A stretch of DNA of 64,000 bases from Stigmatella erecta. Lineage in GTDB: Bacteria; Myxococcota; Myxococcia; Myxococcales; Myxococcaceae. Every line of letters starts with the position of its first letter. Position 1 is the first letter of the stretch. The DNA lies in NCBI RefSeq assembly GCF_900111745.1, contig NZ_FOIJ01000017.1, positions 124,001-188,000 of the forward strand. The letters are read 5' to 3'. A program made the translations under genes and the position numbers. Positions 4,014-41,830 of this stretch are shown here, piece after piece. Under the pieces are notes generated by a model. It worked only from the letters and a program-made list of their open reading frames with translations, searched no databases and was not told the DNA's origin.

Positions 4014-4763
4014 TCAAGGCGTTGAGCGCCCGCCGATCTCCGGGAAGCGCTCATAAGCCCGCAGGAGGGCAGCCAGGTGGTCGGGCTTGTCCAAATCGAG
4101 CGGCGCGTCCGTGAGCTGCACGACCCACCCGCCCGATGCCGTGCGCCGCGCCCGTGAAAGCAGGTCCGCGTCCTCGGCCGGGTCCGGGAACCCGATGGCC
4201 AGTGCGGCAGCGGCAGACCAGTAGTTCAGCCACCCCAGGCGATGCGGAATCTCAGGCGAGCGGATCTTCTCTGGGAGTTTGAGCGCTGGCAGCCCCCGAG
4301 GCGGAATCTCTGGCATATGTGGGTGGATCGTTTGCCCCGCGATTTCTGCGCTCGCCCGGAAGGGCGTAGCATGCCCCCACAACGCGCCCGCTCCCTCCGC
4401 CACGGCATCAAGCATGCCCACCGCAGCCGCTAACACGGCTGTGTGCAACGGAACGTCCGCGTGAACCTCAAACAGCGCTTGGCCACCGGGCCCAGAGCGC
4501 GCGGATAGCTCCAAACCGAAAATCGTTACTGGATAGCTCTCGTCATTGTTGCAGACGAGTGGAAAGCCTCCGTTTCTTCTAGCCTGAGCGAGCCAAGCCT
4601 CGCGCTGCTGCAGAGGGCGGAGTTGATGATCGTCAGAGACGGTCCACTCCAATCGCAAACTGGGGAGCGCGCGTTCCATTGCATGGACAACGGCAATAGG
4701 ACGACTGTCATCGCCCACCAGCGCTGGCCCGTAGACCTTGAGACCGAGGGTGTCTTGCATCAT
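4014..4763 (-). CDS. DUF5953-like protein, putative immunity protein
   Basis: About 249 residues, with no signal peptide or clear membrane segment, so probably cytoplasmic. The N-terminal LKVYGPALVGDD followed by AVVHAMERALPSLRLEW matches my memory of the myxobacterial DUF5953 family. The gene starts 2 bp after the stop of the upstream lipoprotein gene (ATG 4763; in-frame GTGs at 4778 and 4775 would overlap it). That layout, a secreted variable-C-terminus protein followed at once by a small soluble protein, is typical of toxin-immunity pairs, and it lies beside a decayed toxin/Imm11 remnant. The immunity role is inferred from context, not from any catalytic motif. Confidence 0.7.
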   Translation of the reverse strand: MMQDTLGLKVYGPALVGDDSRPIAVVHAMERALPSLRLEWTVSDDHQLRPLQQREAWLAQARRNGGFPLVCNNDESYPVTIFGLELSARSGPGGQALFEVHADVPLHTAVLAAAVGMLDAVAEGAGALWGHATPFRASAEIAGQTIHPHMPEIPPRGLPALKLPEKIRSPEIPHRLGWLNYWSAAAALAIGFPDPAEDADLLSRARRTASGGWVVQLTDAPLDLDKPDHLAALLRAYERFPEIGGRSTP

Positions 4764-4765
4764 CG

Positions 4766-5677
4766 TTATTTGCACCACGTCATGAGTACGACCTTGAGAT
4801 CGGGCGCTGCATTCTTGAGCATTTGCCGGTGTGCTTCGGTGCGAACACCGATGACAAAATCATAGCCGCAGGCCGCTGCGAGGTCTCGCTCGCGTCGCCC
4901 CTCCTCTACCTGCCTTTGAAGCTCAGTCCGCTGAACGAAGGGACTGTACGTCTCGATGGCGGTGGTCTTCACCTCCCAGAGCGTCCGCGCGGCAGGCTGT
5001 AATGCATCGTAAGCCTTGCCGTTAACAAGCGCATTAGCACCACGGAAGGCATTGAGCGGCACGTTGTCGGCACACCAGTTGTGCAAAGCGTTTCCGCCCT
5101 TGGGTGGAACGCGCTTGGGAACGCACTCCGGGCGGCGCTCTCGCTCTCGTGGCTCAGTCGGCACTGGGGGGAACCAGTCCTGCCCCGATGGCTCTGGCTT
5201 GGGCTTTTGATTCGCTGAGGGTGCCTGCGGGCCGGACTTCGTTTGGGGCGCAGGCTCTACCTCCTCCGAACTACTTCCTCTCAGCTCATACGCATCCAGC
5301 GCTTCCTTGATGGCTACTCCCACCACAACCACGCCAACGACGATCACCGCGCCCACAACGATCTCGGGAGCAGCCAAGACACAGAGGCCGATTCCAAGGG
5401 CCGCCGCGCCCGCCGAGGCAACGGCACACCTTCCCGTCGGATCATTGAACCGGATCCGGTCATGATCGAGGGCCTGAAAGCAGCGCTCCGCCAGCACGGG
5501 CCAAGGCTGGGACGCCTCACGGACGACGCACCGCCCCCCTTCCGTCCACGGCAGCTTTGCCGCTCGCTGGAGGTTGGCGATCCTCGGGTTCCGAGCCGCT
5601 GGCTCTTTCAAGCTCGGCGCCGAGCTAGCGCAGGCTGAGAGAAAGAGCAGAAGTGCGATGCAAGCTCGGAGACGCAC
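4766..5677 (-). CDS. Lipoprotein with putative nuclease-fold C-terminal toxin domain (DUF6310-like)
   Basis: About 303 residues. A lipoprotein signal ends in LSAC (Cys16). A small N-terminal region is followed by a long Gly/Val/Ala hydrophobic stretch near 86-123 (GAVIVVGVVVVGVAIKEAL), a Pro/Lys/Glu linker near 138-185, then a C-terminal domain of about 115 residues. That domain has CADNVPLNAF, KAYDAL and LWEVKTT: Asp224, Glu235 and Lys237 form a D-x10-E-x-K arrangement like the PD-(D/E)xK nuclease fold. I recall similar C-termini as DUF6310 in myxobacteria. The second GTG (5677) has AAAGGA at good spacing; the GTG at 5683 sits too close to it. The architecture recalls SitA-type lipoprotein toxins delivered by outer-membrane exchange, but homology to SitA is not shown. 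Confidence 0.65.
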   Translation of the reverse strand: MRLRACIALLLFLSACASSAPSLKEPAARNPRIANLQRAAKLPWTEGGRCVVREASQPWPVLAERCFQALDHDRIRFNDPTGRCAVASAGAAALGIGLCVLAAPEIVVGAVIVVGVVVVGVAIKEALDAYELRGSSSEEVEPAPQTKSGPQAPSANQKPKPEPSGQDWFPPVPTEPRERERRPECVPKRVPPKGGNALHNWCADNVPLNAFRGANALVNGKAYDALQPAARTLWEVKTTAIETYSPFVQRTELQRQVEEGRRERDLAAACGYDFVIGVRTEAHRQMLKNAAPDLKVVLMTWCK

Positions 5678-5760
5678 GGTCACGTCCTTTCAATCAAGCG
5701 TGATGCTGTCGCTCAAGGCTCTCCCGCCCTGGAGTATGCCAGCATGCACTGACGACTACG

Positions 5761-7661: not shown

Positions 7662-8714
7662 ATGCCCTTCGTGCCCCTACTGCTCGTTGGCCTCTCCGCC
7701 GTGCCCTCGCCGCCCACCTCTCCGGAGGGGACGCTTCGCGCGGTGTGTCAAACCCACGCCGCGGATCCGGGCCACCCCTGGGCCCTCGCCCACGGCATCA
7801 CCCTGGAGGGCCAGGACTTCCGCACCCGCGATGGGCGCCGCGCCGTGGACGTCATCGTCTCGGACTTCGTGCGCCCGGGGCCGCGCTTCGAGCCCTTCAC
7901 CGCCGAGGGCATCCCCGTGCAACCCCACCCGGCCCTCCAGGAGAAGACGCTGGTGCTGGCCGGTGTCCCACTGGGCCGGCAGTTCCAGACCCCTCCAGGC
8001 CCGGTGACGCTGAAAGCCTTGGTGGAGGCCCTCCAGCGCGGCTTCTCCCCTGCCCTCGCCTCCTCGCCGGACGGCGCGTGGACGCTGGATGCCCTGGGCC
8101 ACGTCCTGCCACCCGGGACCACCTTCCGCAACGGCGCGGGGGAGACCGTGCGGTTCGATGCGGTGATGGACGAGGCGCTCGCCACACTGGAGCGTGCCCA
8201 GGCGGAGCTCGCCGAGGGCATGAAGGCGGGCCTGCCCCAGGTGCCCAAGCGCAAGCAGGGCATCTACACGCACCCGTGTGGTGGGCTGCACTTCTTCCAG
8301 GCGGTGGCGAGCTGGGCGCGCCACCCCGCCGTGCGCAAGGCATGGGGCGGAAGGCTGGAGGCCCAAGTAGAGGTGCTGATCTACCGGCTGGGCTCGGAGG
8401 CCCGTCAGTACGAGGCCGCGCTGGCCGCCTCCCCCGAACACCGGCTGGCGCTCCTCTCCCAGTCGCTCAAGTTCTATGGCCACTTCCTGGAGACGCTCGG
8501 GCGCTACCGGAAGGAGAACGGCTGGCGCCCTACCCCGAAGCAGCAGCAGGCCGTGCTGCGGGCCCGCCAGTTGCTGGAGGCCACCGTCCGCAGGCTGGGC
8601 GAAGCGCAGGCCTTTGAGCGGATGCCCACGCTCGCCCAGGAGAATCCCCAGCTCTCCTGGGATCTGCTCGGCGACGCCTGCCATGCGGCGCATGGCCTGG
8701 CGCTCTGGAAGTAA
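7662..8714 (+). CDS. Secreted protein of unknown function
   Basis: 350 residues. The first roughly 15 residues are hydrophobic (FVPLLLVGLSAVPS), then the protein is hydrophilic, so it is probably periplasmic or secreted, with an uncertain cleavage site. I do not recognise the family. Visible points are a Cys near 30, KQGIYTHPCGGLHFFQAV near 205-222, and a helical C-terminal half with regularly spaced Leu and Ala. The composition looks real: third positions are GC-rich in the same way as the neighbours. It ends 10 bp before the stop of the convergent acyl-AMP ligase gene. No clear Shine-Dalgarno precedes the ATG. Confidence 0.7.
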   Translation: MPFVPLLLVGLSAVPSPPTSPEGTLRAVCQTHAADPGHPWALAHGITLEGQDFRTRDGRRAVDVIVSDFVRPGPRFEPFTAEGIPVQPHPALQEKTLVLAGVPLGRQFQTPPGPVTLKALVEALQRGFSPALASSPDGAWTLDALGHVLPPGTTFRNGAGETVRFDAVMDEALATLERAQAELAEGMKAGLPQVPKRKQGIYTHPCGGLHFFQAVASWARHPAVRKAWGGRLEAQVEVLIYRLGSEARQYEAALAASPEHRLALLSQSLKFYGHFLETLGRYRKENGWRPTPKQQQAVLRARQLLEATVRRLGEAQAFERMPTLAQENPQLSWDLLGDACHAAHGLALWK

Positions 8715-8724
8715 GGAAGGCGGC

Positions 8725-10476
8725 TCAGGAGCGCGGGCGCGGCCACACCCCGGCCACGAGGCGCGCCTTGCCCTGACGCAGCCACTGGGCCCCGGAGCGC
8801 AGCAGCCTTCCTCCCCGCTGGCGGACCTCGAACACCGGCCCCAGGAAGAGCCGCTGAGCGCGGAGCTTCAGCAGGTCCGCGCGCAGCTGCGGGGCGGTGG
8901 CCACGCGGATGCGCCCCTGCTCGAAGGCCTCGGTGAGGGCCCGGCGCTGGAGCTTGCCGCTGCTCGTCTTGAGCAGCTGCCCGTAGCGGATGAACAGCAC
9001 GTCCTCGTGCGCCACGGTGACGCCCACCGCCTCCAGGATGGCGGCGGCCACCTGCTTCTGGCTCTCGGGCCGGTGCTCCAGCACCTCCGGGCGGCTCACC
9101 TCGGCGAGCACCACCACGCGCCCCTGCGCCTGGAGGACCGCCGTCCTGCCGGAGCGGATGAACGGAAGCCGCTCGATGGCCTGCTCGAAGTCGCTGGAGA
9201 AGTAGCTCTGGCCGTTGATCTTGATCCGGTCGTTGAGCCGGCCCGTGATGAACAGCTCGCCGCCCTCCACGAAGCCCAGGTCCCCCGTCGGGTAGAACCC
9301 CTCCTCGTCCCGCAGCGGGCGCTCGTCCGCGTAGTACGTCCGCGCCAGGCTCCCGCGCCGCAGCTCGATCTGGCCCAGTTCCCGCTCCCCACAGACGCGG
9401 CCCTCCTCGGTCCGGAGCCGCACCTCGAACTCGCTCAGAGGGCGCCCCACGGAGATGGCCGGCTGGCCGCTGGGCCCCGTCACCACCCGCCACCCCTCGT
9501 CCCCCACGCACGAGACCATCAGCACCACCTCGGCCATGCCGTAGCAGGGCTTGATCGCCTCGCGCCGCAACCCCTGCGGCGCGAGCCGTTCCGTGAAGCG
9601 CTCCAGGTTGGCGATGTTGATGGGCTCGCTGCCCAGGTACACGGTGCGCAGCGCCGACAGCTCCAGCCCCTGAAGGTCCTCGGCCTCCAGCCCGTTCAGG
9701 ATCTTCAGCGTGTAGTCGATCGCGAAGTTCGGGATGACGGCCAGGGTGGCGCGGTGCTCGGACAGGAACTCCAGCCAGCCCGCCGGATCCATCAGGAAGC
9801 TCATGGGCGGGGTGAGGAGCGTGTCACAGCCCCCGTAGAGGCACGACAGCATCCCGCCCACCAGCCCCATGTCGTGGTACAGCGGCAACCAGCTCACGCA
9901 CCGGTCCTGCGCGCCGAGCCGCCCCTGCTCGACGATCATCCGCAGGTTGGCGTGCAGGTTGCCCCAGGTGATGGGCACGCCCTTGGGGAACGCCGTCGAG
10001 CCCGACGAGAACTGCACGAAGGCCAGCGTGTCCTCGCCTGGCTCCCGCAGGCGCGCCCCCTCCACGCGCGCCCCAGCGGGCGGCAGGGGCACCCGCTCCA
10101 GGGACAGCTCCAGGGCGCGCAGGCTCGGCACGTCCAGGATGCGGCGCACCCCGTGCCGCTCGGAGAGCCTCGAGAGGAAGTCCCGGTAGGCACCCTTGGG
10201 CGTGCTGAGGATGTAGGGCTTCACCGAGAACGGCACCGCCCCCAGCGCCAGCAACCCGAGGAACGAGAGGACGACCGCCTCGGACGTCTCGAAGGGAAAG
10301 AGGATCCGGTCCCCGGGCTGGATGCCCTGGGCGCGGAAGTGCTCCGCGCTGGCGGCGATCCGCTCCGGCATCTGCCGGTAGGCGAGAAACGAGGACCGGT
10401 GGCCAAAATCCTCGAACAGGGCCAGGCCCCGCTGGGGATCCGCCGCCAGGAGCCGGGCGAAGAGGGTCTCGGTCAT
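8725..10476 (-). CDS. Fatty acyl-AMP ligase (FAAL)
   Basis: About 583 residues of the adenylate-forming superfamily. It should activate a free fatty acid as acyl-AMP and load it on an acyl carrier protein. The motifs FSSGSTAFPKGVPITWGNL, SWLPLYHDMGLVGG and CYGMAEVVLMVSC are typical of FAALs rather than acyl-CoA ligases; the C-terminal part has TGDLGFVEGGELFITGR and DRIKINGQSY. It is the last gene of a four-gene operon that also encodes a carrier protein, which is the obvious acceptor. I prefer the ATG at 10476 (16 bp after the thioesterase stop) over a GTG at 10509 that overlaps it. Confidence 0.88.
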   Translation of the reverse strand: MTETLFARLLAADPQRGLALFEDFGHRSSFLAYRQMPERIAASAEHFRAQGIQPGDRILFPFETSEAVVLSFLGLLALGAVPFSVKPYILSTPKGAYRDFLSRLSERHGVRRILDVPSLRALELSLERVPLPPAGARVEGARLREPGEDTLAFVQFSSGSTAFPKGVPITWGNLHANLRMIVEQGRLGAQDRCVSWLPLYHDMGLVGGMLSCLYGGCDTLLTPPMSFLMDPAGWLEFLSEHRATLAVIPNFAIDYTLKILNGLEAEDLQGLELSALRTVYLGSEPINIANLERFTERLAPQGLRREAIKPCYGMAEVVLMVSCVGDEGWRVVTGPSGQPAISVGRPLSEFEVRLRTEEGRVCGERELGQIELRRGSLARTYYADERPLRDEEGFYPTGDLGFVEGGELFITGRLNDRIKINGQSYFSSDFEQAIERLPFIRSGRTAVLQAQGRVVVLAEVSRPEVLEHRPESQKQVAAAILEAVGVTVAHEDVLFIRYGQLLKTSSGKLQRRALTEAFEQGRIRVATAPQLRADLLKLRAQRLFLGPVFEVRQRGGRLLRSGAQWLRQGKARLVAGVWPRPRS

Positions 10477-10492
10477 GGGGACGCCGTCCTGC

Positions 10493-10921
10493 TCAGGGCG
10501 AAGGGACACGGGATGCGGCCAGGAAGTCCTGGAGCGAGCACAGCGAGCGGTCCGCGGCGTGGACGAAGGCCGCCTGCACCCGGGCCTCCACCGCCAGCCG
10601 CGTCCCGGCGTCGATGAGGATCCGCTGGTGGAAGCGCACCCGGTAGTGCACCTCGTGCGCGTCCCCCAGCTCCTCCTCGGACGGGGCCTCCAGGCGGGTG
10701 TGCACCACCACCTCCTGCGGGGCGATCTCCTTGCGGTAGTCCACCTCCACCCGCATGGTGAGCGCCACCACCTGGGACACCTTGCGCAGGGCGTTGCGCT
10801 CCATCCACGCCCACCGCCCGGCCTCCAGGTACTCCAGGGCGGTGGCGTTGTTCACATGGCCCAGGCTGTCCAGGTCATTGGGCCGCACCCGCAGCGTCAG
10901 CAGGGACTCGTCGAAGCGCAC
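10493..10921 (-). CDS. Hotdog-fold acyl thioesterase (4HBT family)
   Basis: 142 residues, the standard size of a single hotdog. RPNDLDSLGHVNNATALEYL carries the catalytic Asp and HVNN signature of 4-hydroxybenzoyl-CoA-type and acyl-ACP thioesterases. It would release an acyl chain from CoA or ACP. It starts (GTG 10921) 3 bp after the desaturase stop and is followed by the FAAL gene, so translation is probably coupled. Whether it acts as product-releasing enzyme or as editor of mischarged carrier protein cannot be told from sequence. Confidence 0.85.
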   Translation of the reverse strand: MRFDESLLTLRVRPNDLDSLGHVNNATALEYLEAGRWAWMERNALRKVSQVVALTMRVEVDYRKEIAPQEVVVHTRLEAPSEEELGDAHEVHYRVRFHQRILIDAGTRLAVEARVQAAFVHAADRSLCSLQDFLAASRVPSP

Positions 10922-10924
10922 GGG

Positions 10925-11926
10925 TCAGCACCCGACCAGGTCCATCCAGTAGTCCTCCACCTCCTGGGCGGAGGCGCAGGCCACGCCGGTGATGCGCCGC
11001 AGCGAGTGCAGGATGAGCGAGCGCTTGCGGTCCAGCGCCTCGGGCGCCACGGCCGCCTGGCCCGCCTCGTTCTCCAGGTGGTCCCACCAGTTGATGTGGG
11101 TGCCCCGGTCCTCCACGTGCTCGCGCGCGCTGCCGTACAGCTCGCCCTCCTCCCGGAGGAAGAAGTGCGCCACGGCGAAGGCGTCCTTGATGGGGTAGGC
11201 CCCGCTGTCCACCAGCGCCTTGGCGAACGAGATGAAGTACTGCATGTGCTGCACCTCGTCGGCCCCCACGTGCTTGAACAGCGCCCGGAGGCCCGGGTCG
11301 GCCACCTGGCGCATGTACTGGCCGTAGTTGACCGAGGCGATGCTCTCGGAGAACGCCAGCATCGTCACCGTGCGCAGCAGGTCATCGTCCGGGAACACCT
11401 TGCGGTACTCGATGACCGTCGCGTCGCTCAGCGGCTCGAAGCCCACGCGCATGGCCAGCTGCGTGAAGCTCGTCTCGTGGTGCGACTCCTCCTCATTCCA
11501 GTAGCGGCTCCAGGTGCCCAGCGACTGGATGATGGCGGCCACCACGTTGTCCTTGCCCACCCAGCGCCGGCACTCCTGGTCGGCCAGCCGCGCCATGCGG
11601 TCCGCGCTGGGCTTGGCGGTCATCTCCGCCTTGCCGGCGTTCCACACCACGAACCGGTCCTTGTCGGAGAGCTGCTCCAGGCGCACGGACTCCACCAGCT
11701 CCGTGGCGCTCCAGCGGCGCGACTCGTGCAGCCGGTGCTGCTCCCAGGTGATGTCCACCAGCCGCCGGCCCTCCTCCTTGAAGGCCCGGTACAGGTCCGT
11801 CACCACCGCGGGCCTTCGCGGAGCGCTCAGCTCCACCGTGTTGCACTCCACCAGGCCCGCCATCCGCAAGAGGGCCTCCCCCAGCGGCGCCTGGACCCCC
11901 TCCGCCTCCCGGATGACCGCCCTCAA
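10925..11926 (-). CDS. Soluble diiron acyl-ACP desaturase-like protein
   Basis: About 333 residues of the ferritin-like desaturase type (FA_desaturase_2, related to plant stearoyl-ACP desaturase). Numbered from the chosen start, iron ligands are visible as Glu146/Glu147 with His149/His150 (NEEESHHETSF), Glu194 in FSESIAS, and Glu224/His227 in GADEVQHMQYF. It would insert a double bond, or another oxidation, in an ACP-bound chain using O2 and ferredoxin. The frame continues upstream to 12250 only as a shadow of the ACP gene. I place the start at TTG 11926, which overlaps the ACP stop as TTGA with GGGAG 6 nt before; ATG 11863 is an alternative. Confidence 0.85.
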   Translation of the reverse strand: MRAVIREAEGVQAPLGEALLRMAGLVECNTVELSAPRRPAVVTDLYRAFKEEGRRLVDITWEQHRLHESRRWSATELVESVRLEQLSDKDRFVVWNAGKAEMTAKPSADRMARLADQECRRWVGKDNVVAAIIQSLGTWSRYWNEEESHHETSFTQLAMRVGFEPLSDATVIEYRKVFPDDDLLRTVTMLAFSESIASVNYGQYMRQVADPGLRALFKHVGADEVQHMQYFISFAKALVDSGAYPIKDAFAVAHFFLREEGELYGSAREHVEDRGTHINWWDHLENEAGQAAVAPEALDRKRSLILHSLRRITGVACASAQEVEDYWMDLVGC

Positions 11927-12213
11927 ACCGGGCTCCCAGGCTGGCACTCCCGGACGAACAGCTCGACTACCTGGGAGATAGGGGTGTCCAGCGACAGCGC
12001 CGGCAGCCGCACGCGCACCGCGTACTGCTTGCGGAGCGCGTTGGAGGACTTCGCGAACGCCTCCATCAGGTCCACGCTGTTGTGCATCCGGTCCGACCGC
12101 GCGATGACCTCCGCCAAGGTGAGATTCGAGCCGAACAGCTCCTCGGCGTTCAGCCCCACGTGCTCGCAGAACTTCTGGCAGATGAACTCCTTCAACTCGC
12201 CCACGTCGGCCAT
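11923..12213 (-). CDS. Dedicated acyl carrier protein
   Basis: 96 residues, slightly longer than FabD-system ACPs. HNSVDLMEAFAK has the helix-2 ACP signature with Ser46 as the likely phosphopantetheine site; the usual Asp before the Ser is Asn. The acidic start (MADVGELKEFICQKF) and the size fit a free-standing ACP. ATG 12213 is preceded by GGGAGGG. It heads the ACP-desaturase-thioesterase-FAAL operon, so it is probably a dedicated carrier for that pathway rather than the housekeeping AcpP. The last residues overlap the desaturase start. Confidence 0.82.
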   Translation of the reverse strand: MADVGELKEFICQKFCEHVGLNAEELFGSNLTLAEVIARSDRMHNSVDLMEAFAKSSNALRKQYAVRVRLPALSLDTPISQVVELFVRECQPGSPV

Positions 12214-12334: not shown

Positions 12335-13546
12335 TTATGAAACATCTTCGGAATCGCGAGAGACAACAGGAATAATGATTTTCAGATGCAGCATCTCTTC
12401 AGGCGTGAGGCCGGCCTCCGCCAAGATTTGCTGGGAGTGCTGGCCCAGGGTGGGCGGAGGCCGCAGCGGCGTGGGGCCCATCCGCAGGGGCGTCAGCAGG
12501 TGGGTCACCGTTCGCCCACGCTGCGCGTCCTGGGCCTCCACGAAGAGCCCCCGGGCCTGGAGTTGCGGGTCCTTCCATACTTCATCGCCTTCCAGGACAG
12601 GCTCGATGCACAGGTCCGTGCCCGCGAAGCGCTCCTGCCAGTAGGCCAGGGGGTGCTCGGCGAAGAGCCGCGCCAGTTCGGCCTTCACGCGCGCGCCGGC
12701 CTCCGCCGTGTCGTAGCCCTCGGCGAAGAGGTCCATCCGCCCCAGCCGCTCACACAGGCCCGCGAAGAACTTGGGCTCCAGCGCCCCCACCGCCAGCCAG
12801 CGGCCATCCTGCGTGCCGTACAGGCCGTAGCACGCGTAGCCCCCGTTGAGCGCCTCGCGCCCGCGCTGCAGCGGCTGGCCCTGCTCTCCCATGGCGAGCC
12901 GGGCGGCCAGGTGCATGTGCAGGAAGGCCATCGTCCCGTCCGTCATGGAGACGTCCACGAAGCGCCCCCGGCCCGTGCGCTCGCGCTCGTGCAGCGCCGC
13001 CAGGATGCCCACCAGCGCGAAGAGGCTCCCGCCGCCGATGTCCCCCATCTGCACGCCGGGAAAGGCCGGGGCCCCGCCGGCCGCCCCCCCGTAGGCGAGC
13101 ACGCCCGCGCGGGCCGCGTAGTTCAGGTCATGCCCCGCCTTGAGCCGGTCCGGCCCCGTCTGGCCGTAGCCGGAGATGGCGCAGTAGATGAGGCGCGGGT
13201 TCTCCGCCCGGAGCACCGCCTCGCCCAGGCCTAGCTTGTCCATCACGCCCGGGCGGAAGCTCTCCACCAGCACGTCATAGCCGCGCACGAGCCGCTTGAA
13301 GGCCTCGCGCCCCGCCTCGGACTTGAGGTCCAGCGCCAGCGAGCGCTTGTTGCGGTTGAGCCCGTAGAAGAGCGCGCTCTCGCCGTCGCGCAGCGGGGGC
13401 ATCTGCCGGATGTAGTCCCCGCCCTGGGGCTCCTCCACCTTGTCCACGGTGGCGCCCAGGTCCGCCAGCACGAGCGTGGCATACGGGCCGGGCAGCAGCC
13501 GCGAGAGGTCCAACACCTTGAGGCCTTGCAGCGGAAGCGTGTCCAT
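12335..13546 (-). CDS. CaiB/BaiF family protein, alpha-methylacyl-CoA racemase-like
   Basis: 403 residues of the type III CoA-transferase superfamily. LKVLDLSRLLPGPYAT at the N-terminus and ISGYGQTGP are family marks. GHDLNYAARAG (His139) and QMGDIGGG (Asp169) match the proton-transfer His and Asp of alpha-methylacyl-CoA racemases, so epimerisation of a 2-methyl branch is more likely than CoA transfer. A racemase would let branched chains enter beta-oxidation, which fits the nearby acyl-CoA dehydrogenase and SCP2 genes. It is transcribed toward the ACP operon but separated from it by 121 bp. Confidence 0.85.
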   Translation of the reverse strand: MDTLPLQGLKVLDLSRLLPGPYATLVLADLGATVDKVEEPQGGDYIRQMPPLRDGESALFYGLNRNKRSLALDLKSEAGREAFKRLVRGYDVLVESFRPGVMDKLGLGEAVLRAENPRLIYCAISGYGQTGPDRLKAGHDLNYAARAGVLAYGGAAGGAPAFPGVQMGDIGGGSLFALVGILAALHERERTGRGRFVDVSMTDGTMAFLHMHLAARLAMGEQGQPLQRGREALNGGYACYGLYGTQDGRWLAVGALEPKFFAGLCERLGRMDLFAEGYDTAEAGARVKAELARLFAEHPLAYWQERFAGTDLCIEPVLEGDEVWKDPQLQARGLFVEAQDAQRGRTVTHLLTPLRMGPTPLRPPPTLGQHSQQILAEAGLTPEEMLHLKIIIPVVSRDSEDVS

Positions 13547-38107: not shown

Positions 38108-41100
38108 TCAGTCCTCTTTGTCTCCCGCGCTGTCGTCCCAGGGCACGGACGCAGGCGCCCTCCCCTCGGGAGGCTTCGCGGCCTCCGACGCCGCGAACTC
38201 CTCGAAGGGATCCGTCTCCACCTCCGGGAACCCGGGCAAGGGGCTGGAGGCGGGGGCAATTCCGTACTTCGCCGTGGTCGTCACCGCGGAGGACGCGGAG
38301 GAGGTGATGCCGTAGCGGTGCGTCGTGGGCTCCGGACTGGAGAGCTCCGGCGCCAGGACCGGAAGCGCCGTCACCGTCGCGGGTGGCTTCGGAGGACTCG
38401 GAGGCACCGGCGCGGCGGGCGCCCCGGGCTGATACGGCGGCACGAAGCTCCAGGTGGGCACCAGCGCCACCTCGTCCTGAGGGGTGCCAGGGCGCTCCGG
38501 GGCCGCGGCCGCGGGCGTCTCCAGGTCCACCCCGCGCAACTCCCACGAGGGCGTGGACTCGTGTCCGGCATGGACCTCCGTCCCCGCCCCTTGCGTGACG
38601 AACTCCCACGTCGCCGCGAGCTGCAGCGGCTCCTCGGGCTCGGGCGGAAGTTCGCCGAGATCAATGGGGGCACGCGGCTTCTCCACCACGGCCGGGGGCT
38701 CCTCCTCCTCGGGAACCTCGGGCTCCTCCGCCTGGGCCTCCGCCGGGGCCTCGGCCGGGGGTGGCGGCTGGGTCTTGAGCCCATCCAGGGTCCAGGCGCC
38801 GGACGAGACCGTCTCGTCCTCCTCCTCGGAGGCCTCCTGGGACGGCTCGGGCTCTGTCACCGTGCCGATGTCGATCTCGGGCAAGGAGGCCTCGGCCTCC
38901 ACGGCCGGGGCGTCCTCGTCGTCTTCTTCGATCTCCGCCTCTTCGAGGGCGGCCTCGGGCTCGAGGGTCTCCTCCTCCTCGTCGATGCTCTCGCTCTCCA
39001 GCTCGATCACCGGCGGGGGCGCGGCGTCCTCGGCCGGAAGCTCCGGCGTGTACACCGGTGCGGGCAGCGCGATCACCGGAAGGTCCGCGGACACGGACGG
39101 TGCCGAGGGCGCGGGGAGCGGCACTGCGAACGCGTTGGGAGACGCCGCCGGCGGAACGGGCGCGATGGCCGGCGGTGGAGAGGCGGGCGCCGGGAGCGGC
39201 ACGGGCGCCGCGGACCGAGCGGACGGCGAAGCCTCCCCAGGCACCGGCGGCATCGGGGGCCGCTGGGAAACCGGGGCGGCGACACCCGGATGACCCGGTG
39301 CAAGCGGCGGGGCCGGCCGCCCTGGAGCAACGGCCGGAGGCGGAGCACCGACCGCAGGGATCGCGGCCCGGCTCGGGGGCTCTTGCCGCACAGGAGCCCC
39401 TGGGGGCACGGCCACCGGCGGTGGAGCGCCCACCGCGGGGATCGCAGCCCGGCTCGGCGGCTCTTGCCGCGCAGGAGCCCCAGGCGGGGCCACCGGCGGC
39501 GGAGCACCGACCGCGGGAATCGCGACCCGGCTCGGCGGCTCTTGCCGCACAGCCGCCACGGGAGGAAGGGCTCCCACGGCGGGGATGGCGGCCCGGCTCG
39601 GCGGCTCCTGCCGGACGGAGGCCACGGAGGGCACGGGCGCAGCCACCGGCGGCGGAGCACCGACCACGGGAATCGCGGCCCGGCTGGGCGGCTCTTGCCG
39701 GACGGGGGCCACTGGGGGTGCGGCGGCAGGAGGCGGGGCCCCCACGGCGGGGATCGCGGCCCGGCTGGGCGGCTCCTGCCGGACGGGGGCGCCCGGAGGA
39801 CGCGCCCCAGCAGGAGCGCCGGTGGGCGAAGCCATGCCCGGAGCCTGTCCTGGCGGTGAAGGCGGCCGGGCCGCGGCGGACGGCTGGATGGCGGGAATCC
39901 CCGTCAACGTCGCCCGCACCGGAGGTGCCACGGGCACCGCGCCCGCAGGCGCGGGAGGTCCCCCCGGCGGCGCCATCGTGGGCCGGGCGCCCCCTGGGGG
40001 AGCCGGTTGAGGCGCACCTTGAGGCGGCCGAGGCGCTGCGCCTGGCGCCATGCCTGGCGCGGCCGGAGGGCCCGCCACGGGCGGTTGAAGGGGCCGGGGG
40101 GGCGCCACCGGCGGCCGCGTCTCCCCCGGTGCAGCAGGGGGCATGAGGGGAGGCCCCGCGACCGGCGCCTGAGGCCCCCCAGGGGAGCCCGAGGCGCCCG
40201 CAGGCGCGATCGGCCGGGCGGCGGGCACGGAAGGCATCGAGGCCTGCGTCTGCCGCGCCGCGGGAGGCAAGGGCACCGCCTGCGACGGAGGAGACGCGGG
40301 AGGCAAGGGCACCGCCTGCGACGGAGGCGCCACGGGAGACGGCGGCTGGGGCTTGGCGGCGGCCACGGGGGCCTGAGGAGGCAACGGCACCGCCGTCGGC
40401 CGCGGAGCGCCCTGCCCCGCCGCGCTCGCGGAGGGGCCCGGAGGCGCAGCAGCCGAGGCCGCGGGCGAAGACACCGGCGCGGGCAGTGGAATGGCCCCGG
40501 GGCCCATCGCGCCCAGGAGCTGAGGGGACGAAGGCAGGGAAATCGGAGGCGGCGGGCGGCTCACGGGAGCGGCCACGGGCGAGGGGCTCCCCTGCGGCGG
40601 AGCCGTTGCCGCCTTGGCGGGCGCCGGGGCCGCTGGGCTGGGCGGGGGAAGCGCGGGGGCCTTCTCGGCGGCCTCGAACGGCCCATCGAGCGACAGCCCG
40701 GGAGGCGCATCGAGCGGCTCCAGCATGAACGACGTGGGAACCGAGAGGGCCGTGGGCGGCCCGGAAGGTGCCGGAGGCTTGGGCGCTGCGGCGGCAGGAG
40801 CCACGGGAGCAGCGGGGGCGGCGGCAGGAGCGGCCGGGGCGGCGGGCGGCGTGGCGCGCGGCTTCGGCAGCGAGATGCCCTGCCCGTCGGGGAAGTCCAG
40901 CGCGTCCCCGTCTCCCGCCGAGGGAATCGCGAGGGGCTTCGGGGCCCGGGGCGGCGGCGCGGGCTTGGGAGCGGGGGCCGCTGTCGGCGTGGAGCGCAGC
41001 TTCGGCAGCGAGATGCCCTGCCCGTCGGGGAAGTCCAGCGCGTTCAGATCATTGTCCGGCGAGGGCCGGCTGGGCGCGAGCGCGGGGCTCGCCTTCATCG

Positions 41101-41830
41101 GAGGCAGCTCCGAGGGGAAGTCGATCGCATCCTCCATCTGCGAGGCGGCAGGCTTCGGCGCAGTCTTCGGAGCACTGGCGCCCGGCGCCGCGGGAGCCCC
41201 GGGCACCTCCTCGGGCGCGTCATCGCTCAGGTACGCGCCGTCATCGAGCCCACCGAACATCGCCTTGGACTCGGGGGTGCCACCGGGCGCGGCGGCCTGC
41301 GGGGTGGCGGGGGCCGCGGGGGCTGGCGGCTTCGGGGCATGCACCCCGGGGAGCCCCTGCGGCCGGGTGTCCGGATCCAACCGGATGAAGCGCTCCGGCC
41401 GGACGATGCCATAGCGCTTCTCCAGGTAGATGAAGAGGCGCAGCTCCGGCACGATGCACGGCACGATGCGCAGGCCCGTGGTGAACGCGAGCGCGTCCAC
41501 GTGCTCCATGTCGGAGGGGCTCGCCATGGCCACCTTCAGCCGGCGCCCCTCCAACTGCAGGGGAAACGCCGAGTGCTTCTCGGCCAGCGCCGCGGGCAGC
41601 GCCGCGAGCGTCGCCACGGTGACCGACTCGAACTCCTGCACCGTGGCCTGCGGATAGCGCGACTGCTCCGAGAGCACCTCGCCCAGCTTCTCGATGCTCA
41701 GAAACTCCAGCTCCACCAGGTTCGTCCCCAGGCGGCCGCCGTAGATCATCTGGGCCTTGAGGCCCTCGTCGAGTTGGGTCTGATTGATGAGGCCCTTGCG
41801 GACCAGAAGGGCACCGAGCTTTTCCGCCAT
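38108..41830 (-). CDS. GspE N-terminal domain protein with long Pro/Ala-rich repeat tail
   Basis: 1240 residues. Only the first roughly 160 are a folded domain: GALLVRKGLINQTQLDEGLK and LGEVLSEQSRYPQATVQEFE match the GspE/PilB N-terminal domain (GSPII_E_N). There is no ATPase domain. From about 165 onward the protein is low-complexity Pro/Ala/Gly, then acidic, and is likely disordered. Embedded are a DFPDGQGISLPK-type motif twice plus one variant near 225-330, and six QEPPSRAAIPAVGAPPP-like units near 680-840. I infer an adaptor that uses the GspE-N domain to bind a partner, with the tail as a flexible linker or interaction surface. It follows the polysaccharide genes' direction. Confidence 0.75.
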   Translation of the reverse strand: MAEKLGALLVRKGLINQTQLDEGLKAQMIYGGRLGTNLVELEFLSIEKLGEVLSEQSRYPQATVQEFESVTVATLAALPAALAEKHSAFPLQLEGRRLKVAMASPSDMEHVDALAFTTGLRIVPCIVPELRLFIYLEKRYGIVRPERFIRLDPDTRPQGLPGVHAPKPPAPAAPATPQAAAPGGTPESKAMFGGLDDGAYLSDDAPEEVPGAPAAPGASAPKTAPKPAASQMEDAIDFPSELPPMKASPALAPSRPSPDNDLNALDFPDGQGISLPKLRSTPTAAPAPKPAPPPRAPKPLAIPSAGDGDALDFPDGQGISLPKPRATPPAAPAAPAAAPAAPVAPAAAAPKPPAPSGPPTALSVPTSFMLEPLDAPPGLSLDGPFEAAEKAPALPPPSPAAPAPAKAATAPPQGSPSPVAAPVSRPPPPISLPSSPQLLGAMGPGAIPLPAPVSSPAASAAAPPGPSASAAGQGAPRPTAVPLPPQAPVAAAKPQPPSPVAPPSQAVPLPPASPPSQAVPLPPAARQTQASMPSVPAARPIAPAGASGSPGGPQAPVAGPPLMPPAAPGETRPPVAPPRPLQPPVAGPPAAPGMAPGAAPRPPQGAPQPAPPGGARPTMAPPGGPPAPAGAVPVAPPVRATLTGIPAIQPSAAARPPSPPGQAPGMASPTGAPAGARPPGAPVRQEPPSRAAIPAVGAPPPAAAPPVAPVRQEPPSRAAIPVVGAPPPVAAPVPSVASVRQEPPSRAAIPAVGALPPVAAVRQEPPSRVAIPAVGAPPPVAPPGAPARQEPPSRAAIPAVGAPPPVAVPPGAPVRQEPPSRAAIPAVGAPPPAVAPGRPAPPLAPGHPGVAAPVSQRPPMPPVPGEASPSARSAAPVPLPAPASPPPAIAPVPPAASPNAFAVPLPAPSAPSVSADLPVIALPAPVYTPELPAEDAAPPPVIELESESIDEEEETLEPEAALEEAEIEEDDEDAPAVEAEASLPEIDIGTVTEPEPSQEASEEEDETVSSGAWTLDGLKTQPPPPAEAPAEAQAEEPEVPEEEEPPAVVEKPRAPIDLGELPPEPEEPLQLAATWEFVTQGAGTEVHAGHESTPSWELRGVDLETPAAAAPERPGTPQDEVALVPTWSFVPPYQPGAPAAPVPPSPPKPPATVTALPVLAPELSSPEPTTHRYGITSSASSAVTTTAKYGIAPASSPLPGFPEVETDPFEEFAASEAAKPPEGRAPASVPWDDSAGDKED
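39325..39800 (-). repeat. Six imperfect coding repeats, QEPPSRAAIPAVGAPPP-type
   Basis: Each unit starts with RQEPPSR and continues (A/V)AIP(A/V)VGA(P/L)PP plus a variable Ala/Pro spacer, giving periods of roughly 23 to 29 residues. The units lie inside the Pro/Ala tail of the GspE-N protein gene and are similar at DNA level, so copy number may vary between strains (inference). Confidence 0.8.

Follow-up and report, generated by a model that had tools for sequence, protein, structure and literature searches.

In a 64-kb stretch of Stigmatella erecta DNA (G000:C17:124001-188000, hereafter the window; L, G, and g followed by digits are analysis-internal names of loci, genomes, and genera), four minus-strand genes at positions 8725-12213 form the reduced version of a six-gene cassette. 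This cassette probably carries out a self-contained oxidative tailoring of fatty acids, in which a free acid would be loaded, oxidized, and released without any chain building. The genes encode an acyl carrier protein (ACP)-like protein of 96 aa (11923..12213), a soluble ferritin-like diiron enzyme resembling acyl-ACP desaturases (333 aa, TTG start, 10925..11926), a hotdog-fold thioesterase (142 aa, GTG start, 10493..10921), and a fatty acyl-AMP ligase (FAAL)-like enzyme (583 aa, ATG start, 8725..10476). An earlier reading of the window, referred to here as the original prediction, had described these four genes with coordinates that proved exact to the base, and the tight packing that it reported was also confirmed: the carrier and desaturase genes overlap by 4 bp, and the gaps are 3 bp (desaturase/thioesterase) and 16 bp (thioesterase/FAAL). 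The overlap depends on the TTG start of the desaturase; L020 and L021 read TTGATG at this place, indicating a start there or one codon on, and the N terminus of the window desaturase aligns with the proteins of both loci. The dN/dS values relative to L020 were 0.11 for the carrier, 0.23 for the desaturase, 0.26 for the thioesterase, and 0.24 for the FAAL (0.13 for the neighboring CoA-transferase gene), and the cassette genes of the window are under purifying selection.

Conservation and mobility of the cassette

A desaturase profile was run against 195 genomes of Myxococcota, the phylum of the window. It matched in 28 genomes; in 24 the match was close (E value of 1.6e-158 or better), and in the other 4 it was distant. 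The close matches, all of one family, came from every genome of the window's genus (7/7) and of g17 (2/2), 14 of the 16 genomes of g43, and G020. Beyond Myxococcota, the search covered a plasmid collection and one pattern scan of genome contigs, which yielded two loci. In total, 25 loci were read, comprising 22 close Myxococcota loci (including those of 10 of the 14 g43 genomes) and three plasmid loci. The carrier gene adjoins the desaturase gene in all 25, and the thioesterase and FAAL genes then follow in 24, a grouping that is beyond chance. The original prediction had made its case depend on the four genes being kept together in relatives, as they are in these 24 loci.

In its fullest form, of which L062 is an example, the cassette has six genes in the order ACP, desaturase, AcpS-type phosphopantetheinyl transferase (PPTase), thioesterase, alpha/beta hydrolase, and FAAL. 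By tblastn, the AcpS gene was found between the desaturase and thioesterase genes in 18 of the 25 loci, and the hydrolase gene was found at its cassette place ahead of the FAAL gene in 15. Two of the 18 AcpS copies were scanned against PF01648 (cut-off of 25), and both passed, that of L025 with 27.6 bits and a Nostoc copy with 38.6 bits. Both genes are absent from the window and from L019, L020, and L021; in L028 a short AcpS-like remnant was recognized by eye, and in L108 the AcpS-like sequence extends over more than one frame, suggesting a broken copy. The predicted four-gene cassette was therefore correct as a gene set but is a reduced form of the six-gene one, whose PPTase and hydrolase had been missed.

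The identity matrices of the six cassette proteins correlated pairwise at 0.82 to 0.99 over 66 to 231 locus pairs, values which are uncorrected for common descent. In L023 and L024 the carrier-desaturase pair is present twice in tandem. In a desaturase tree of 21 rows, with a midpoint root only, the window sequence grouped with the first tandem copies in a clade of seven rows (support of 100/100, stem of 0.64), and the second tandem copies clustered with the extra cassette L028 (support of 98/97). The window cassette probably descends from this duplicated state, having kept the diverged desaturase copy.

A second cassette type was observed in two other myxobacteria (L029:6251-10854 and L073:6207-11109). 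Its distant ferritin-like enzyme of 402 to 416 aa has a longer N terminus and is accompanied by a different thioesterase (4HBT type in L029), a carrier, a FAAL, and a similar alpha/beta hydrolase; the parts of L029 were assigned by Pfam, and those of L073 were assigned only by the resemblance of their start sequences. That these functions recur together around a distant oxidase lends support to the role proposed for the cassette. Still more distant ferritin-like proteins lie beside a small protein of carrier size in L030:9835-11090, where ketosynthase-type genes follow, and in L031:1588-3054, where the ferritin-like protein has an N-terminal 4Fe-4S ferredoxin domain.

The main-site cassette is flanked on the left by a CoA-transferase family III gene (12335..13546, minus strand, assigned by Pfam) and on the right by a convergent gene without a Pfam match (7662..8714, plus strand), neither of which belongs to it. 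Twelve genomes were searched for cassette-free main sites, and ten such sites were read. The flanks were adjacent in four of these (L126, L130, L133, and L134), with hit ends 19 to 120 bp apart; in L129 they were about 3 kb apart, and in the other five the right flank was undetected. L133 and L134 belong to G121 and G127, the two g43 genomes that have no desaturase, and in G020 the main site is empty and the cassette is found at another place (L025). The cassette is a removable block between two unrelated genes and is located elsewhere in some genomes.

The cassette is also carried by plasmids of two Nostoc strains and one Xenorhabdus strain, with desaturases 51 to 56% identical to that of the window. 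A tblastn search of the plasmids with the desaturase returned exactly three records at an E value of ≤0.01, and the three best plasmid hits of the FAAL were the same three records (39 to 49% identity; the next hit was at 33%). PLSDB typing classed both Nostoc plasmids as conjugative and the Xenorhabdus plasmid as non-mobilizable. The hosts are predatory soil bacteria (myxobacteria), cyanobacteria (Nostoc), and an insect-associated bacterium (Xenorhabdus). Ahead of the cassette on the Nostoc plasmids, a site-specific integrase gene followed by hypothetical genes was observed (L107:11918-14106 and L109:11527-14061); three hypothetical proteins scanned from these plasmid loci had no Pfam match.

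A conserved block encoding an amidohydrolase, hydrolases, a CFA synthase, and a membrane desaturase precedes the cassette genes in L025:2374-8884 and L027:3199-8911. It was rejected as an obligate partner, as it stands alone in L140 and L141 and has cassette genes attached in only two of its four holders (96 genomes searched). The proximity of a CFA synthase to a desaturase in this block may point to a fatty acid with a cyclopropane ring or a methyl branch. Near the main site of G114, an extra FAAL-like gene (L070:17848-18996, 35% identical) occupies the place where other main-site loci have a sigma factor gene. The CoA-transferase homologs of L113 (G102) and L122 (G021) each have one in-frame TAG within the matched stretch.

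The cassette proteins and a proposed reaction scheme

Two desaturase alignments, of 13 and 16 rows, together covered 21 of the 27 sequences gathered. The proposed diiron ligands E101, E147, H150, E194, E224, and H227 were invariant in both, so the enzyme retains the ligands that the original prediction had required of it after alignment. HMMER placed all of these except E101 on matching residues of mycobacterial DesA2 (1za0). E118 was also considered for the first ligand, being likewise invariant and, like E101, falling on a Glu of the L029 enzyme, an alignment which fits both residues. The sequence E101-x4-P, however, resembles an E-x3/4-P pattern located 31 or 42 residues ahead of ExxH in five of five PF03405 proteins, L029, and L073 (the distance in the window is 46), and on the basis of this pattern E101 is the likely first ligand.

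All 16 aligned members matched PF03405 at an E value of ≤0.1 (best, 4.3e-7), and two relatives passed its cut-off, G125 with 28.5 bits and the second copy of G006 with 23.3 bits, the latter with neighbors in frame. For the window enzyme, PF03405 was the sole desaturase family matched. Among solved proteins, the family profile came closest to DesA2 (E values of 2.1e-4 and 5.9e-5), over a stretch covering five of the six ligands. When profiles were compared with hhalign, the family matched the L029/L073 enzymes with a probability of 96.5 over 173 columns and five plain PF03405 proteins with a probability of 78.8 over 77 columns. Taken together, these matches put the desaturase family at the fringe of PF03405. 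These results support the soluble, ferritin-like type of oxidase that had been predicted in place of the membrane type, and the Nostoc plasmid copies are annotated as acyl-ACP desaturase and holo-ACP synthase.

The halogenase CylC and its homologs carry the motifs QExxH and HxxDExxH, according to the available text of PMC12101540. The equivalent sites of the cassette enzyme read EExxH and (V/I)xxDExxH in 16 of 16 rows, so that both the Gln and the extra His are absent. This speaks against the three-histidine site of AurF and CylC and in favor of the site with two His and four carboxylates that desaturases and hydroxylases have. The ligand pattern together with the missing CylC signature favors a desaturase or hydroxylase.

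The carrier contains the motif NS(V/I)DLM, of which N45, S46, D48, L49, and M50 were invariant in alignments of 13 and 9 sequences (overlapping sets). An AlphaFold2 model of the carrier (mean pLDDT of 85.9) had helices at residues 4-19, 23-27, 33-39, 46-64, and 79-90, the conserved Ser opening a helix of this small helical bundle. Ser46, at the start of the long helix, is the presumed phosphopantetheine site. In a Foldseek search with the model, ranks 1, 3, 5, 6, 10, 11, and 13 were carrier proteins or complexes holding one, as judged by title.

The thioesterase matched PF13279 (4HBT_2; E value of 1e-14) and, more weakly, PF20791, the acyl-ACP thioesterase C-terminal domain (E value of 1e-6), both above the cut-offs, and scored under the cut-offs of the YbgC/FadM models; its DLDxxGHVN motif was invariant in 22 of 22 cassettes. 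The FAAL, with PCYGMAE invariant in the same number, consists of an AMP-binding domain plus the DIP2-like C-domain PF23024 (43.2 bits). Compared with solved proteins, it scored highest with the adenylating domain of a polyketide synthase (PKS), 7r7e (198 bits), which we take to be a FAAL domain, with the fatty acyl-adenylate ligase 3pbk (186 bits), and with 3kxw (185 bits), presumably also a FAAL. A FadD32-type group (about 158 to 126 bits), McyG (154 bits), and the amino-acid-adenylation entry 6ulx (141 bits) came next, and the first acyl-CoA maker by name outside the FadD FAAL group was oxalyl-CoA synthetase 6qjz, at 64 bits.

From the observed gene set, conservation, ligand positions, mobility, and loss patterns, we propose the following scheme, in which each catalytic step is inferred from family membership. 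The FAAL would adenylate a free fatty acid and load it onto the phosphopantetheine arm of the cassette's own small carrier. In the fuller cassettes the AcpS-type PPTase would arm this carrier; in the window, a PPTase encoded elsewhere in the genome would do so. With electrons from a ferredoxin encoded elsewhere, the diiron enzyme would activate O2 and oxidize the carrier-bound acyl chain at an unactivated position, most likely by inserting a double bond. The hotdog thioesterase would then hydrolyze the product and free the modified fatty acid, and the alpha/beta hydrolase of the fuller cassettes may supply the substrate from lipid or help in release. The load, carry, oxidize, and release logic that had been proposed for the four genes is supported by these assignments.

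Several observations weigh against this scheme. One concerns the gene set, as in L027 the ACP and desaturase genes are followed by an MFS gene, without thioesterase and FAAL genes, and no ferredoxin gene was found within the cassette. With respect to the oxidase, the window protein scored 14.1 bits against PF03405, under the gathering cut-off of 22.7; Rubrerythrin was also matched at an E value of ≤0.1 by 12 of the 16 rows; and the single window protein, compared with solved proteins, matched the encapsulated ferritin EncB (E value of 0.001) ahead of DesA2 (0.023). An AlphaFold2 model of the desaturase, built from a four-sequence input, had a pLDDT of 37 and was unusable. The designation "ACP" depends on the Ser motif, the fold of the model, and the linkage of the carrier gene to AcpS in relatives; none of the nine cassette carriers scanned matched Pfam PP-binding, and the carrier proteins in the Foldseek search had E values of 0.31 to 1.5, with none of the 149 matches at ≤0.001. 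The designation "FAAL" agrees with the lead of FAAL-type entries among the solved proteins, but of the NCBIfam models the best was a long-chain CoA-ligase (267.8 bits), just ahead of the fatty acyl-AMP ligase model (262 bits), both under the cut-off. The insertion specific to FAALs is expected in the stretch behind YGMAE. The spacing from YGMAE to TGD is 85 to 86 residues in the 18 of 22 cassettes in which it was measurable, a length intermediate between those in the L029 and L073 FAALs (105) and in the acyl-CoA ligase of the window (69). With this shorter stretch and the CoA-ligase model, the preference of the FAAL for a carrier over CoA is unproven.

Alternative readings

Instead of a free acid being released, an acyltransferase or assembly line encoded elsewhere might receive the loaded and oxidized acyl-ACP in trans, with the thioesterase only clearing stalled carrier. 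FAALs usually occur with PKS or nonribosomal peptide synthetase (NRPS) systems, according to the available text of PMC11837247, and in Xenorhabdus TH1 a 6-kb AMP-binding gene of NRPS-like appearance, located by a thioester reductase gene, ends about 8 kb upstream of the cassette, with two transposase genes between. Such a hand-over is opposed by the presence of the thioesterase wherever the FAAL is present (24/24 loci) and by the lack of a ketosynthase or NRPS gene inside the cassette in all 25 loci read; for the two Nostoc plasmids, an incomplete gene table lists none within 15 kb. In agreement with the original prediction, no PKS or NRPS was seen near the window cassette, in rough gene calls of the 64 kb for which most genes were without a domain scan; the largest protein (1,240 aa, 38108-41830) has an N-terminal MshEN domain as its sole recognized domain. 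We regard transfer in trans as rather unlikely, though worth keeping in view. The same loading and carrier logic might also serve another oxidation, the acyl-ACP being hydroxylated or else chlorinated as by CylC. Shifts in chemistry come easily to ferritin-like enzymes, and the distant L029 cousin had a weak AurF match (23.7 bits; cut-off of 29.6), but PF03405 was matched by all 16 cassette rows and AurF was not among the seven families that they matched. With the CylC residues missing from every row, a CylC-type halogenase was dropped; an oxidation other than desaturation, perhaps a hydroxylation, is judged unlikely.

If the window copy were a decaying remnant, the absence of AcpS and hydrolase genes from the window and its three nearest relatives would be part of that decay, and the AcpS remnant of L028 and the broken copy of L108 would fit the same course. 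Four open reading frames, low dN/dS values, six retained ligands, and tight gene packing make decay very improbable. A role of the adjacent genes in the same pathway, such as fatty-acid degradation or CoA recycling, was considered because genes for the CoA-transferase, an SCP2 protein, and an acyl-CoA ligase neighbor the cassette in main-site loci and share its strand. The four empty sites at which the CoA-transferase gene stays by the right flank, and the cassettes at other sites that are without these genes, largely refute their membership, and this reading is close to negligible. Oxidative tailoring of a free fatty acid, most likely a desaturation, thus remains the reading that we prefer. 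More tentatively, and with the odds rather against so broad a statement, the cassettes may constitute a horizontally moving class of fatty-acid editing systems, present in at least three phyla, which take in a free acid and give out a re-functionalized one by means of their own loader, carrier, arming enzyme, diiron oxidase, and release enzyme. The oxidase of the window clade would then be a diverged daughter of the tandem carrier-desaturase duplication whose older sister copy has been lost, perhaps with a new regiochemistry or a second-step activity (diene or alkyne formation).

Related systems and other features of the window

The cassette works like the JamABC and polyyne cassettes, with another type of desaturase. 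The JamABC terminal-alkyne cassette likewise combines a FAAL, a dedicated ACP, and an oxidase that acts on acyl-ACP, and this part of the parallel drawn in the original prediction stands. The desaturase is of another type, as the original prediction had noted: the IPR005804 type, which is the membrane type, was not found, and only PF03405 was matched. Unlike JamABC, the window has a ferritin-like oxidase, a carrier outside Pfam PP-binding, and an added thioesterase, with AcpS and hydrolase in the fuller forms. In a survey of alkyne and polyyne clusters, a desaturase of IPR005804 and a carrier of IPR009081 were conditions of inclusion (PMC8406139), and such a screen has probably passed over the present cassette type. 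Judged by titles and the starts of abstracts, no description of the gene set as such was recognized among the papers listed from the open-access PMC literature.

JamABC-type cassettes had been named as a parallel; in the literature, the polyyne clusters and the CylA-CylB-CylC halogenating trio likewise come nearest in gene content. The polyyne clusters described in the same text (pgn, cay, collimonin, cepacin, and ergoyne) combine genes for a FAAL, an ACP, desaturases, and a thioesterase; pgn yields protegencin, C18H18O2 (PMC8406139). Their desaturases number three (JamB and two more), and a rubredoxin gene is present as well, whereas the present cassettes lack rubredoxin and have a single ferritin-like enzyme, doubled in tandem in L023 and L024. 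The CylABC trio shares the FAAL, the ACP, and a ferritin-like diiron enzyme acting on acyl-ACP but differs in the QExxH and HxxDExxH motifs discussed above. AFC-BC11 (afc) of Burkholderia has the FAAL AfcA, one carrier, AfcK, and the putative acyl-ACP desaturases AfcN and AfcD, but it makes up a lipopeptide pathway that also includes adenylation enzymes, KAS III-like enzymes, and numerous others, and the word "thioesterase" is absent from its main text as available (PMC12186527). The imidacin pathway of Stigmatella was set aside, as it has its own PKS genes and no link to the cassette locus was found in the available part of its description (PMC11301661).

Among single enzymes, DesA2 and the plant acyl-ACP desaturases are the closest comparison, DesA2 being the nearest solved relative of the family profile. 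They act on the ACP of fatty-acid synthesis, whereas the cassette enzyme has its own carrier and loader. FAAL-ACP pairs are a main gateway by which bacterial fatty acids are diverted into special products. With the cassette, these pairs would be joined by a soluble diiron oxidase that has a carrier and loader of its own, and the set might serve as a tool to introduce a double bond or hydroxyl into a fatty acid of choice. Given the conjugative-typed Nostoc plasmids and the clean gain or loss among related myxobacteria, strain comparison offers a way to test the product and its use.

A promoter scan found no promoter-like site, terminator-like sites numbered 2 (1.5 expected), Rfam matched nothing in the window, and PADLOC matched nothing for the carrier, desaturase, and thioesterase. 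An overlapping pair of DUF5953 and DUF6310 genes lies at 4014-5683; an effector-immunity type is a guess only. At the left window edge (5-2407), a gene encodes a TPR-CHAT domain protein, possibly truncated by the edge. Annotated CHAT genes also occur close to the cassette of each Nostoc plasmid, which is probably a coincidence.

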